DNA of 64,000 bases, taken from Bdellovibrio bacteriovorus. Lineage in GTDB: Bacteria > Bdellovibrionota > Bdellovibrionia > Bdellovibrionales > Bdellovibrionaceae. Both the position numbers and the translations under genes were made by a program. This document shows, piece by piece, positions 11,801 to 46,591 of the stretch (the first letter of the stretch is position 1; the number at the start of each line of letters is the position of its first letter). The stretch lies in contig NZ_LUKF01000001.1 in assembly GCF_001592755.1 (NCBI RefSeq), positions 36,774 through 100,773 on the forward strand. Reading direction: 5' to 3'. Under the pieces are notes generated by a model. The model was not told where the DNA came from and ran no database searches. It saw only the letters and a list, made by a program, of their open reading frames with translations.

Positions 11801-14385
11801 CCCAGTTTACCTTCCGTACCTACTTCTTTCGCCACACGAGTCACCTCGGCAGCAAACGAGTTCAACTGATCCACCATCACGTTGATCGTATTTTTAAGCT
11901 CCAGGATTTCACCTTTTGCATCAACGGTGATTTTTTGTGACAAGTCACCTTTTGCAACGGCTGTCGTTACTTTTGCGATGTTACGTACTTGCGCCGTCAG
12001 ATTTCCAGCAAGACTATTTACGTTATCAGTTAAGTCTTTCCACGTACCCGAAACTCCACGAACCTCTGCTTGTCCGCCCAGTTTACCCTCAGTACCTACC
12101 TCTTTCGCAACACGAGTCACTTCGGCTGCGAAGGAGTTCAACTGATCCACCATCGTATTGATTGTATTTTTTAATTCGAAGATCTCGCCTTTGGCATCAA
12201 CGGTGATTTTTTGTGACAAGTCACCTTTAGCTACGGCCGTTGTTACTTTCGCGATGTTACGTACTTGCGCTGTTAAGTTTCCAGCTAGACCGTTCACATT
12301 ATCAGTAAGGTCTTTCCATGTACCGGAAACCCCTTTTACTTCGGCTTGTCCGCCCAACTTACCTTCAGTACCCACCTCTTTCGCAACACGAGTCACCTCG
12401 GCAGCGAAGGAGTTTAACTGGTCCACCATGACGTTGATCGTATTTTTTAATTCAAAGATTTCGCCTTTGGCATCAACGGTGATTTTTTGTGACAAGTCAC
12501 CTTTTGCAACCGCAGTTGTTACCTTTGCGATATTACGTACTTGATCTGTTAAGTTGCCCGCTAAGCTATTTACGTTGTCTGTTAAGTCTTTCCACGTACC
12601 GGAAACTCCGCGAACTTCTGCTTGTCCACCCAGTTTACCTTCAGTACCCACCTCTTTCGCGACGCGAGTCACCTCGGCAGCAAACGAGTTCAACTGGTCC
12701 ACCATCGTATTGATTGTATTTTTCAGTTCAAGGATTTCACCTTTAGCATCAACTGTGATCTTTTGAGATAAGTCGCCTGTCGCAACCGCTGTTGTTACTT
12801 TCGCGATGTTACGTACTTGCGCCGTTAAGTTTCCAGCAAGACCGTTTACGTTGTCTGTTAAGTCTTTCCAAGTACCAGACACACCTTTTACGTCGGCCTG
12901 ACCACCTAGTTTACCTTCAGTACCCACCTCTTTCGCGACACGAGTCACCTCGGCGGCGAACGAACGCAGTGTATCCACCATCGTATTGATGGTGTCTTTC
13001 AGTTCTAAGATTTCGCCTTTGGCGTCAACCGTGATCTTTTGTGATAAGTCACCGTTGGCAACGGCCGTTGTTACTTTTGCGATATTACGTACTTGCGCTG
13101 TTAAGTTGTTCGCAAGACCATTTACGTTGTCCGTTAGATCTTTCCAAGTACCAGACACACCTTTTACATCAGCCTGACCACCCAAACGACCTTCCGTACC
13201 TACTTCCTTCGCAACACGCGTCACCTCGGCCGCGAATGAGTTCAACTGATCCACCATCACGTTGATTGTATTTTTTAGTTCTAAGATTTCACCGCGAGCA
13301 TCGACTGTGATTTTTTGTGACAAGTCACCGTTGGCAACGGCTGTTGTTACCTTCGCGATGTTACGTACTTGCGCCGTTAAGTTATTCGCAAGACCATTTA
13401 CGTTGTCTGTTAAATCTTTCCATGTACCAGAAACACCTTTTACGTCCGCCTGACCACCTAGACGACCTTCCGTACCTACTTCCTTCGCAACGCGCGTTAC
13501 CTCGGCCGCGAATGATGAAAGCTGATCCACCATGACGTTGATTGTATTTTTCAGCTCGAAGATCTCGCCCTTGGCGTCAACCGTGATTTTTTGTGACAAG
13601 TCACCCTTTGCCACGGCCGTAGTTACTTTTGCGATGTTACGTACCTGGTCGGTCAAGTTGCCCGCAAGGCTGTTTACATTGTCTGTTAAGTCTCTCCAAA
13701 TACCAGAAGCACCGCGAACATCTGCTTGTCCGCCCAGCTTTCCTTCGGTACCCACCTCTTTCGCAACACGCGTTACCTCTGAGGCAAATGAATTCAGCTG
13801 ATCCACCATGGCATTCACCGTGGTACCAATACGCAAGAATTCTCCTTTTACCGCACGAGATTCAATTTCTAAGGACATCTTTTGTGACAAGTCGCCTTTT
13901 GCCACGGAGGTGATAACACGCGCAACCTCTTGTGTTGGTTGCACAAGATCCCCGATAAGAAGATTCACGGAATCTACGCTTGTCGCCCAAGCTCCACGCA
14001 CCGAACCCATCGACACACGTTCATTCATCTTACCTTCAAGGCCGACGGTGCTTCGCACTCTGACGAATTCGTTGGCCATGTTTTCGTTGAGTTCAATGAT
14101 GTCATTTAATACTTCACCGATTTCGGCGATGATGCCTTCTTGCCCAACAGGCATACGCACCGCAAAGTCACCGCGGCGCACAGCTTTTACTGTGAACAAG
14201 AGTTGGCGCAGTTGCTCTTTCGGGTTTGTGTCTGTTGGCAATTCAAAATTCAGAAAGGTTGACGGTGCGACATTTTTTTTGTCGACTGACGAAAATTCTT
14301 TCATCTTCATGGGTTTCGCGGGTGATTTAGAATTCTTTTTTCCGGAACGACTTTTTGCTTCTACGTGCGTATCAAGCTTCGCCAC
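8887..14385 (-). CDS. Giant soluble hybrid histidine kinase with tandem HAMP array (group III/Nik1-like)
   Basis: About 1832 residues and no membrane helix. A basic N-terminus and one diverged HAMP pair (to about residue 190) precede eleven exact 92-residue units, each with two HAMP-like halves ([13 protein letters not shown]... and [20 protein letters not shown]). Then come GAF (about 1230-1380), coiled coil, HisKA with [12 protein letters not shown], HATPase with [10 protein letters not shown] and [10 protein letters not shown], and a C-terminal receiver ([12 protein letters not shown]). This is the layout of fungal Nik1/Os-1 osmosensing kinases and their bacterial relatives, in which the HAMP array senses osmotic or other stress. 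The frame is open from an ATG at 14424 without a ribosome binding site; the GTG at 14385 has AAGGAG 7 bases upstream and is the likely start. First gene of a five-gene operon. Confidence 0.93.
10774..13809 (-). repeat. Tandem array, eleven units of exactly 276 bp inside the HAMP kinase gene
   Basis: Counting from the ATG codon of the first MVDQLNSF (13807-13809) to the equivalent Met of INQMISNL (10771-10773) gives 3036 bases, exactly 11 x 276. Units 1-9 are nearly identical at the protein level and very similar in DNA; the last two are more diverged ([17 protein letters not shown]). There is no indel. Copy number may vary through recombination and short-read assemblies may collapse it. Confidence 0.93.
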
Positions 14386-14727
14386 AAGATCTCTCCTTAG
14401 TTCGAGACATCTTCGAATAAACATTATGCAAATTTAAACATGTAGACAAAACACAAAGTCTTACGTGGATTTAATTTAATGGGCTACAGAGGGTCAATTA
14501 CGCAAGCGTAACTTGTAACCTTCTTGTTTTTTGCAGATCTTCCGCGCCCTCTTTTCAGAGGGAGACCGACAGCATTTCCGATAATTTGGATTGCAAAACA
14601 ATGCCCAAAAAAGCCTTGTGACAAAGAATTTTACAGCCCAAAAGGTTCAAGTTGAACGCAGCCTTTCTTCTTTATAGGTACAAGGATTGCTTCCTCATAT
14701 TCACCACTTAGCTGAAGGAGCTGTTCC
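14386..14727. other. Divergent intergenic region, 342 bp
   Basis: This AT-rich space separates the HAMP-kinase operon from a divergent secreted-protein gene, so promoters for both must lie here. I see a hairpin without a T-run (ccctc-ttttca-gaggg, 14547-14562) and a 13-base dyad gttcaagttgaac (14645-14657) some 70 bases before the plus-strand gene. GAAGGAG precedes the ATG at 14728. I see no gene or RNA that I can name. Confidence 0.5.
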
Positions 14728-15210
14728 ATGAAAATCTATATTCCGGCGTTGATCACAACACTTTTAGCAGCCATGACCGTGCATGCAGCGACAACATCTG
14801 GAAGCATCGGGGTTTCACTGACGATCGTTGATGCGGGAAAGACCTCTTCTAGCGCGCCCACAAGCCCTTCGGATCTTCACAGTGTGAAGTCCTTAAGTGT
14901 TCTGACCGATGCTGCGAATGGCGCCATGATTGACGTTTTATTGAACGGACAAAAGATCGCGTCTGTCCCTTCGCAAAACGGCGTTATCCATTTCAATGTC
15001 GACCTGCAAGATGCTGAAAGCATCAATTTCGCATTTAAGTCCAATGGTAAAACCGTCCATGTTTTACAGACCTACTACAAGCAAGGTGACCATTCGATCA
15101 CCCCCCAAATGAGTAAAAAAACCTATCGCCAGCAAATCCCAACAACGGATGCTCAAGGACGTTCTTCAACTCGAGAAATAGACGTTCAAGTCATCGAAAT
15201 TTCTTACTAG
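14728..15210 (+). CDS. Secreted protein of unknown function
   Basis: A 160-residue protein with a clear signal peptide (MKIYIPALITTLLAAMTVHA, cleavage after VHA). The mature part is predicted to be mostly beta strand: GSIGVSLTIVD, a Ser/Pro-rich stretch, then MIDVLLNGQKIASVP and INFAFKSNGKTVHVLQTYY, reminiscent of a small immunoglobulin-like or spore-coat-type fold, but no family is recognisable. It has no cysteine in the mature part. GAAGGAG precedes the ATG. It stands alone between two divergent or convergent units, and its stop overlaps the 3' end of a 51-codon gene on the other strand. Confidence 0.8.
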   Translation: MKIYIPALITTLLAAMTVHAATTSGSIGVSLTIVDAGKTSSSAPTSPSDLHSVKSLSVLTDAANGAMIDVLLNGQKIASVPSQNGVIHFNVDLQDAESINFAFKSNGKTVHVLQTYYKQGDHSITPQMSKKTYRQQIPTTDAQGRSSTREIDVQVIEISY

Positions 15211-44023: not shown

Positions 44024-44638
44024 TTAGGAGATTTCCATTTCACGTTTTAATTTCCAATCTAATGTCGGCTGATCCACTTCAGGCTTGAAGTGGTCACGGC
44101 AACGAGCTTCATAAGAATCATGAGCCCCAACAAGAACCTGATTGTCTCCACCGGAAGTTCTTTGCGTACGGCTAGCTTGAGCTCCACAAACCACGCACAC
44201 CGCGTGTTGCTTCGTCACACTTTCAGCAATCGCCATCAAAGTCGGCATCGGCTCAAAAGGCTTCCCCTGCCAATCCGTATCCAACCCCGCGATAATCACA
44301 CGAAGTCCACGATCCGCAAGATCCTGCGCCACTTGCACCAAATTAGCAGAAAAGAACTGCCCCTCATCAATACCGATGACTTTCGTCCCCGGCTTCAAAT
44401 GATTCCAAATCTCTTCCGCATCATGAATCGGCAAAGAATCCATGGTCGTCATATTATGAGAAGTCACAGCCATCTCATTATAACGTTTATCAATAATAGG
44501 CTTAAAAACCTGAATCTGCAGCCGAGCAAACTCCGCCCGACGCAATCGACGAATCAATTCTTCAGTCTTCCCACTGAACATCGACCCAACAACGATTTCA
44601 ATCCACCCTCTGCTTTGAACATAAGAAAACTCAGACAC
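44024..44638 (-). CDS. tdk: Thymidine kinase
   Basis: Salvage enzyme that phosphorylates thymidine to dTMP. It has the type II layout: P-loop GSMFSGKTEELIRRL, Walker B-like GIDEGQFF, and a lasso with zinc-type residues (CVVCGAQA and CRDH). The frame is open to an ATG at 44770, but that adds 44 Trp/Gly-rich residues not seen in the family. The GTG at 44638, preceded by GAGGGGTCAA, gives 204 residues, the usual length. For a predator that recycles prey DNA, thymidine salvage is useful; that is inference. Convergent with trmFO, with 12 bases between. Confidence 0.9.
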   Translation of the reverse strand: MSEFSYVQSRGWIEIVVGSMFSGKTEELIRRLRRAEFARLQIQVFKPIIDKRYNEMAVTSHNMTTMDSLPIHDAEEIWNHLKPGTKVIGIDEGQFFSANLVQVAQDLADRGLRVIIAGLDTDWQGKPFEPMPTLMAIAESVTKQHAVCVVCGAQASRTQRTSGGDNQVLVGAHDSYEARCRDHFKPEVDQPTLDWKLKREMEIS

Positions 44639-45211
44639 TTGACCCCTCACTGTCTTCAGCCAAAGACGATCCAAGAATCCCCACCCCGAGTCACCAACTA
44701 ACGCAAACCGTCCCCACCAAAAAAAATCCCAAGAAAGCATGTCTATATATAGAGAAGACCCAAGAAACAAAACTGCCCACGATTTAAGCTCAACGGTTAT
44801 AGCAAACCTTCATCATGCAATCTGCTCTTAGACTGAGTTGAATTGGAAAAATCCCTGAAACCTGGTTTCGATTCCGTGGATTGGCGAAGCCTTTGGGCTG
44901 GCGGATGACGAAGGGACCTCCGGCCCCGCAGGATGCGGTACCCTGGCCGGCAGAGGGCTGGATGCCCGTGTCCCGTAGTCATTCGACAGCCCAAAGGCTC
45001 CGACAAGCCGCGGAATCGAAGGACCCGCGTTACAATCGCGAGCTTCTCCCCCATTCGTAACACAACCCAGTAACTCAAGACCGAGACTGAAGTTTTTTCT
45101 AATTCACCCCGGAGTTCTTCCAAAAACCGTCAGTTTTTCACAATTTTAAGGGTCCAACACACCCTTAGAGCTTGCGGCTGCGCCGCGTCGTCAGATACTC
45201 AAGGCGAACAC
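44639..45211. other. 573-bp divergent intergenic region containing a large RNA-like hairpin
   Basis: Between tdk and mltF. It holds the 154-nt hairpin described separately (44867-45020), a small hairpin aagggt-ccaacac-accctt (about 45148-45168) and gcggc-tgc-gccgc (about 45175-45187) close to mltF. A 108-codon minus-strand frame at 44797-45123 runs through the hairpin and has no features of a gene. No tRNA is seen. Confidence 0.6.
44867..45020 (+). ncRNA. Candidate structured RNA: long 51-bp imperfect hairpin with branched tip
   Basis: Arms 44867-44917 and 44970-45020 pair in register without a gap over 51 positions: 43 Watson-Crick pairs, 2 G·U and 6 mismatches. Five of the six mismatches are G·A or A·G, counted on the plus strand; on the minus strand the G·U pairs would be A·C mismatches and the G·A ones C·U, so the plus strand is the better RNA. 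The 52-base tip can form ccggcc/ggccgg enclosing ccgca-gga-tgcgg, and gggc-tggat-gccc. The segment is visibly richer in G+C than its surroundings. I do not recognise 6S, SRP, tmRNA, RNase P or a known riboswitch. It may also be a DNA-level palindrome. Confidence 0.55.
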
Positions 45212-46591
45212 ATGGGTATGTTTTTAAGATTTCGACAGAAATTAACCAAGGTCGCTCTTGTCAGCGCTTTGGGTTTTACGACGATCGCGATGAATGGCTG
45301 CGACGCCATTTATTGGGACGAGCAAGAAACCTTATCCCGTGTTCAAGCCAAAGGCGAAGTTGTTGTCCTTACCACGCAAAGTCCTCTTATATATAGTAAG
45401 CCGAAAAAGGGCGTTGCGTTTGGAATCGATCACGATCTTTTAGAAAACTTCGCTCACCGCTATAACCTGAAGATCCGTTACATTGTTCTTCCTGATGAAG
45501 ACTCGGTGGTAAGAGCCCTGATGAAGGGTGAAGGCGATATCGCCGCGGCTCGTTTGAGGACTCCTCGTAATAATATGGGCTTTTTAAAAAGCCCCGCCTA
45601 TGAAGAGACTTTTTTAAGTCTTTACTGCCATAAGAAATCCCAAGTTCAAAATATCCAGGATCTTAACGGCAAACGCATCCAGCTTCTTAATAAAGATAAC
45701 TACTTCGGTCTTTCGCAACGCCTGCTTCAGCTTTCCCCGTCCGTCCAACTTGAAATCTTAGAAAATACAAAAACTCAGGATTTGTTCACGGCTCTGCCAC
45801 AGCGTAAAACCGATTGCGTGATCGCAGAAAACTTCAGCGGAGATTTCTATACGCGCTATCACACTTCCGTAGAAAAAGTGACTGCACTCACAGAGTCTTA
45901 TTCTTTAAGCTGGCTTTTGACTCCGGATAATTATGACCTCGTCCAGTTGATGAATGCTTGGTATCAGCAGGCGTCTCGGGACGATGAAATCATGCGCACT
46001 TTGGATCGTTACAAAACTTATCTCGCCCAGCTGGATAAACGCGACATTGCTCAGTTCTTTAAAAAGATCCGTTCGACACTTCCTCTTTACCGCCAGGCTT
46101 TCAAAGATGCTGGTGAAGAGCACGGTCTTCCGTGGCAATTGATTGCTTCGGTGGCGTATCAAGAATCGCATTGGAATCCTGATGCTCGCAGCTTTACCGG
46201 TGTGCGCGGTCTTATGCAATTAACGACAGAGACGGCAGATCACGTGGGTATCGAAGATCGCACAGATCCAATGCAAAGTATTTGGGGCGGATCGAAGTAT
46301 CTTCGTTACTTATGGAATCGCACTCCGAAAGACTTAAATCCGAAAGACCGTCTGGCTTTGACTTTGGCGGCTTACAACGTCGGTGTCGCTCACTTGAAAG
46401 ATGCGCAGAAGCTCGCTGAAAAAATGGGTCGCAATCCTAATTCATGGAGACACTTGCGCGAGGTTCTTCCTCTTCTGGCTAACCCCGATTACGCAGCGGA
46501 ACTAGAATACGGCCCCGCACGCGGTTATGAAACGGTGGATTTCGTCGAGCGTGTGAAATCTTTCTATAACTTGATGAACTCTGGCGTTTAA
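45212..46591 (+). CDS. mltF: Membrane-bound lytic transglycosylase MltF-type
   Basis: Cuts peptidoglycan between N-acetylmuramic acid and N-acetylglucosamine with formation of 1,6-anhydro ends. The 459-residue protein has a signal peptide with lipobox (AMNGC, Cys30), an amino-acid-binding (SBP type 3) domain (about 45-270; VVVLTTQSPLIY, GDIAAARLRT) and a C-terminal SLT domain (about 305-440) with catalytic Glu in YQESHWNPDA, then GVRGLMQLT and LAAYNVG. That two-part form is specific to MltF. AAGG is seen before the ATG. It stands alone and is followed by a terminator. Confidence 0.92.
   Translation: MGMFLRFRQKLTKVALVSALGFTTIAMNGCDAIYWDEQETLSRVQAKGEVVVLTTQSPLIYSKPKKGVAFGIDHDLLENFAHRYNLKIRYIVLPDEDSVVRALMKGEGDIAAARLRTPRNNMGFLKSPAYEETFLSLYCHKKSQVQNIQDLNGKRIQLLNKDNYFGLSQRLLQLSPSVQLEILENTKTQDLFTALPQRKTDCVIAENFSGDFYTRYHTSVEKVTALTESYSLSWLLTPDNYDLVQLMNAWYQQASRDDEIMRTLDRYKTYLAQLDKRDIAQFFKKIRSTLPLYRQAFKDAGEEHGLPWQLIASVAYQESHWNPDARSFTGVRGLMQLTTETADHVGIEDRTDPMQSIWGGSKYLRYLWNRTPKDLNPKDRLALTLAAYNVGVAHLKDAQKLAEKMGRNPNSWRHLREVLPLLANPDYAAELEYGPARGYETVDFVERVKSFYNLMNSGV

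Follow-up and report, generated by a model that had tools for sequence, protein, structure and literature searches.

A hairpin between tdk and mltF of Bdellovibrio bacteriovorus belongs to a dispersed and apparently undescribed family of probable structured RNAs

The hairpin at positions 44867-45020 of the window (the whole 64,000-nt stretch of Bdellovibrio bacteriovorus DNA that was analyzed) is a member of a dispersed, apparently undescribed structured-RNA family. Its copies have in common a branched tip, carried on long stems whose sequence is specific to each locus. We give an even chance to the reading in which this tip binds a protein, likely CsrA through GGA hairpins, and acts as a decoy or locally. 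No description of this hairpin family was found in Rfam 15 or in the open-access literature searched. The original prediction had considered a lone new small RNA gene; instead, the hairpin proved to be one of about 27 dispersed copies in its own genome.

When the two arms were aligned by anchored pairing (locus L001), the plus strand gave 51 in-register pairs without any gap, namely 43 Watson-Crick pairs, 2 G·U, 5 G·A or A·G and 1 A·C. This reproduces exactly the count first reported for the hairpin (43 Watson-Crick pairs, 2 G·U and 6 mismatches, 5 of them G·A). The MFE of the plus strand was -101 kcal/mol (z -10.1), and none of 200 shuffles was equally stable, in agreement with the claim that random DNA does not give such a structure; for the minus strand the values were -95.5 kcal/mol and z -9.5, again with no shuffle equally stable. 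The additional stems foreseen at the tip fold as a P1 helix and two hairpins. The hairpin sits between the divergent genes tdk and mltF, and the features of the region are as follows.

44024-44638, minus strand: tdk (thymidine kinase), divergent, on the 5' side of the hairpin (ORF; alignment)
44867-44914, plus strand: left (5') stem arm (pairs with the right arm in the 51-pair register)
44915-44972, plus strand: conserved branched tip, type I, GACCTCCGGCCCCGCAGGATGCGGTACCCTGGCCGGCAGAGGGCTGGATGCCCGTGTC (identity and covarying structure)
44920-44950, plus strand: P1 helix of the tip, enclosing hairpin A (CCGGCC at 44920-44925 pairs with GGCCGG at 44945-44950)
44926-44938, plus strand: tip hairpin A, loop AGGAU at 44930-44934 (fold; GGA here, CGA in many other copies)
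44955-44967, plus strand: tip hairpin C, loop UGGAU at 44959-44963 (fold)
44973-45020, plus strand: right (3') arm of the stem (pairing with the left arm)
45164-45211, plus strand: promoter-like block GCTTGC...GATAC, upstream of mltF and 3' of the hairpin (conserved in relatives)
45212-46591, plus strand: mltF-like lytic transglycosylase, the downstream gene (ORF; family name taken from the original prediction)

A covariance scan of the 64-kb window against Rfam returned no family at gathering score, as expected from the earlier statement that the hairpin is not 6S, SRP RNA or tmRNA. The same scan of 20 copy loci gave none at threshold, save a separate SRP RNA gene: at L060:479-577, a bacterial small SRP RNA gene (RF00169) lies directly 3' of the copy upstream of dnaX. 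Matches to VA and miRNA families were dismissed as noise.

When the window's own genome was searched at the DNA level, the window tip matched partially at a second place. In relatives, the 58-nt tip recurred flanked by unrelated arms, and tips from other members of the genus are 79-89% identical to that of the window. A covariance model built from 21 tips (R1) found copies in 21 of 24 genomes of the genus at E<=0.01, with up to 16 per genome. Many of these matches belonged to a second tip type with an extra hairpin, on which a second model (R2) was built. With R2, 27 copies were found in the window's own genome, the window hairpin among them, and 25 further own-genome copies were all long hairpins when refolded. 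Four other Bdellovibrio genomes held 12, 35, 23 and 19 copies, the first of these (G005) being the genome that we take to be strain HD100. Copies of G005 lie, among other places, at 423498-423578 (plus strand), 1191858-1191938 (minus), 1192182-1192263 (plus), 2138262-2138341 (minus) and 3086149-3086223 (minus). At E<=0.001, R1 matched in 9 of the 20 genera of the bacterial family; the few weaker R2 matches in the remainder of the order, and a single one in the rest of the phylum, are candidate copies by score only. A pattern scan of named genomes returned Bdellovibrio MAGs and scattered single matches in unrelated genomes, and no match to the element was present in the phage and plasmid collections searched.

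The copies are about 150-200 nt in size. Their conserved branched tip carries two (type I) or three short hairpins, and their stems typically comprise 30-45 bp, usually with a GA-rich internal loop close to the tip and, in many copies, another internal loop at the foot. Within the window's own genome the arms are unlike one another and the tip is common. The tip loops read NSGAN or ANGGAU (mostly NGGAN, some NCGAN), GGA being about three times as frequent as CGA. Recognisable GGA hairpin loops were found in 100 of 115 copies (25 of the 27 from the window's own genome), with one to three recognised loops per copy. The motif CANGGAUG is present in 21 copies and CAGGAUG in 47, always on the plus strand and never on the opposite one. 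Some stems (L058, L103, L108, L119 and L121) show single G·A mismatches every 4 bp or so, with the A usually preceded by a G; avoidance of RNase III or a weaker DNA palindrome would be guesses at the purpose of this regular interruption.

Which strand folds can be read from the mismatches. The preference for G·A and G·U over their complements, already noticed in the window hairpin, is general across 90 members of the hairpin family: the tip strand of these stems contains 181 G·A/A·G against 11 C·T/T·C, and 80 G·U against 9 A·C/C·A. A symmetric DNA palindrome would not give so strong a bias of the mismatches to one strand. Furthermore, a covariance search in related genomes, proposed at the outset, found compensatory changes. 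In the tip, 16 of 26 pairs showed double-sided compensatory changes, a level reached by 0 of 500 shuffles, and 93.8% of the alignment cells pair, which no shuffle or slide came near. In 20 pairwise comparisons, mostly between orthologues, 70 pairs were doubly compensated, compared with 29 that had a single change to G·U and 50 that were broken. The strand-biased mismatches and the joint changes of paired bases thus identify the plus strand as the folding strand, which bears out the structured RNA proposed for it. The plus strand is the strand under selection, and the stem stays self-complementary over evolution. As far as the sequences can tell, folding occurs most likely as RNA; that the same strand instead folds as single-stranded DNA may also be the case.

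Two candidate signs of expression were set aside. Of the eight attack-phase sRNAs of strain HD100 (PMC3627812), 0 coincide in coordinates with the copies of G005, and they were rejected as members. A dedicated upstream promoter of sigma-70 type was also rejected, since a scan 5' of 115 copies showed no enrichment and fell below shuffled controls.

With regard to function, a CsrA-binding RNA is favoured because of the GGA hairpins, the presence of csrA in 65 of 66 genomes of the bacterial family and a sub-threshold resemblance to TwoAYGGAY (RF01731). The element would be transcribed, its stem arms would be copied by template switching during replication, and its tip would bind a protein as RNA, CsrA being the likeliest partner by way of the GGA hairpins. 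The many copies would jointly form a CsrA decoy, as CsrB or RsmZ do, or each would act locally, on its own transcript. The window's genome encodes csrA (PF02599, 89.9 bits). In the bacterial family the gene is found in genomes with or without detected copies and is nearly universal, and its co-occurrence with the copies is therefore uninformative. CGA loops should not bind CsrA, and about one quarter of the recognised tip loops, being CGA, speak against this protein. The G·A mismatches of the stems were also considered as hidden CsrA sites, and this was rejected, since any NGA is enriched there and not GGA in particular.

TwoAYGGAY, which is predicted to bind CsrA, has tandem-GA pairs and an outer stem of low conservation (PMC4333381); it was described from gammaproteobacteria, Clostridiales and the human gut (PMC2864571). 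The copies have in common with it a long, poorly conserved outer stem, a GA-rich internal loop and a multibranch core with GGA-loop hairpins; some carry GCCACGGAUGGC or GCCAUGGAUGGC hairpins, GCCAUGGAUGGC being as in the Rfam consensus. Two copies match the model over its full length (1-168), under threshold, and in these full-length alignments the order of external stem, internal loop and multibranch core is kept. In 24 genomes, the best sub-threshold RF01731 matches mostly coincide with copies of the element, strand included; in none of them was the gathering score (43 bits) reached, the best match having 31.6 bits (E 0.0072 per genome), and part of the score may be due to the possession of any long stem. 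As to the two AYGGAY loops of RF01731, most loops here are NGGAN or A[ACU]GGAU, and at least two GGA loops are present in 51 of 115 copies. The copies differ from TwoAYGGAY in that they score under the gathering threshold, many have an extra hairpin and CGA loops, and they are dispersed in tens per genome. A similar comparison holds for the CsrB/CsrC and RsmX/Y/Z sponges, which likewise are highly structured RNAs with paired GGA stem-loops, found in genomes with csrA. These, however, have many GGA hairpins at one to a few loci, whereas the present family has many copies with one to three recognised loops each.

If the elements are transcribed, they would give a model predatory bacterium a large family of structured RNAs, one without an Rfam family at threshold, and predicted CsrA-binding RNAs would then reach into the Bdellovibrionota as well. 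To our knowledge, no post-transcriptional regulator of the attack-to-growth switch is known in this phylum.

In order to follow how the stems arise, the tdk-mltF site was compared between relatives. The element is present there only in G000 (the window genome), G018 and G009, and the site is empty in the 12 other relatives examined. The left arm of G009 aligns over its length, in the sense direction, with empty-site DNA (z 9.8 with G019 and 7.1 with G004), including TGTCAA, the complement of TTGACA; its right arm matches empty-site DNA only as the reverse complement. As judged from these alignments, it is thus shown, for one locus in one species, that host DNA already at the site became the left arm and was newly copied in inverted orientation to give the right arm. 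The arms of G000 and G018 gave no clear match to the empty sites. Between these two genomes (orthologue L004), the middle 10 nt or so of both arms have been replaced together, en bloc.

It is known that RNA stems can be created and repaired by template switching with reverse-complement copying (PMC8794818). The fit with this process makes it probable that the stems of the hairpin family are built and repaired in the same way: as there, perfect stems would be made or repaired by reverse-complement copying, with block changes in both arms. The published mechanism concerns RNA genes in general, whereas here a single dispersed family with a conserved tip is involved. The series of orthologous stems (empty site, fresh arm copy, block-compensated arms, decayed copies) constitutes a natural experiment on how RNA stems are made and kept by template switching. 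When further empty sites were sought, most comparisons showed the element in both genomes or a decayed copy in one of them. L269 (G005, about 2.384 Mb), orthologue of the G001 copy at 2551079, lacks 44 nt of the inner left arm and tip and is decaying. In G011, L278 (about 12110-15130), orthologue of the G022 copy at 2220661, has a tip longer by about 60 nt and an insertion of about 2.9 kb directly 3'. A 185-bp stretch of G022 (L279:1547-1732), missing in G011, contains a 3' half-tip and right arm with no 5' half, a 5'-truncated copy beside an intact one.

The position of the copies bears on the remaining explanations. In the window's own genome, the 3' side of 21 of 27 copies faces the 3' end of a gene on the opposite strand, and 15 of 27 lie between convergent genes; among the neighbours, as named from sequence, are rplL and a GroEL-like C terminus. 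Other genomes carry copies beside rplL-rpoB, flagellin, pth/ychF and ssb-like genes. The 5' flank of the copies is G-poor and A/C-rich. All 19 pairs of neighbouring copies within 1.5 kb have their 5' ends facing each other, several of these pairs being orthologous, so that they are not 19 independent events. Outward pairs (L187, L197, L076, L077, L078, L088, L129, L079 and L173) are usually 220-530 bp apart, with an apparently non-coding spacer. Of the copies at rplL-rpoB, the one nearer rpoB apparently lies upstream of the rpoB promoter.

A non-autonomous mobile or insertional repeat of the REP/ERIC/Correia kind, with a mobile tip, insertion at gene edges and snap-back copying of host DNA into the stem, is possible, though doubtful to us. 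The strand bias would then reflect the folding of one strand during mobilisation. The dispersed copies with many singleton loci, the occupation of tdk-mltF in only three genomes, the host-derived right arm of G009 and the orientation towards opposite-strand 3' ends are consistent with it, and of the mobile multicopy element named in the original prediction as an argument against a small RNA, the multiple-copy part was indeed found. However, no mobilising enzyme was identified: a RAYT/Y1 transposase was rejected, the single weak Y1 match (28.7 bits) not being beside a copy. Many loci (rplL, dnaX, ssb) are moreover common to several species, and the structure has been kept over long times, which together point to function. 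Like REP/BIME, ERIC and Correia (NEMIS) repeats, the copies are multiple, dispersed intergenic hairpins, often 3' of genes. In those repeats the palindrome arms or terminal inverted repeats are conserved across copies, whereas here the tip is common, the arms differ even between copies within one genome, and the mismatches are strongly biased to one strand. With a similarly low probability, we consider a selfish or domesticated RNA element in which the branched tip alone passes from locus to locus, the stem being copied in reverse from adjacent host DNA at each new site; every copy would then be a hairpin built from local sequence, with the same protein-binding RNA head on top.

It is rather unlikely that the hairpin is a cis-acting 3'-end or boundary element, which would be carried by transcripts leaving the intergenic region towards a gene and would halt exonucleases, RNase III or polymerase, thus limiting antisense read-through into well-expressed genes. 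Such a role would fit the location between convergent genes, the outward pairs, the composition of the 5' flank and neighbours such as rplL and the GroEL-like gene, which are usually well expressed. A terminator or exonuclease block does not need a conserved tip, however, no 3'-side U-run was seen in the own-genome copies read, and the window copy lies between divergent genes. Both the mobile repeat and the boundary element could hold alongside the preferred CsrA-binding RNA.

Finally, the suggestion of a regulatory leader of mltF (attenuator or riboswitch) is most improbable: the hairpin does lie on the mltF strand about 190 nt upstream of the ATG, but the 12 relatives without it keep the mltF upstream region, the family adjoins unrelated genes and mostly lies antisense to the gene 3' of it, and the GCTTGC...GATAC block, putatively promoter-like and kept in relatives both with and without the hairpin, intervenes before the ATG. 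On the other side of the hairpin, comparison with G009 places the probable tdk start at the GTG at 44636-44638. Most relatives at tdk-mltF have TGTCAA upstream of tdk, that is TTGACA on the tdk strand, probably the -35 of this gene. The window carries instead, at 44742-44753, the palindrome TCTATATATAGA, common to G018, in view of which the tdk promoter may be different in the window genome. In G020 (L235/L255, 3333033-3334870), the gap from tdk to mltF is about 1.8 kb, as against about 90-320 bp in the other relatives without the hairpin.
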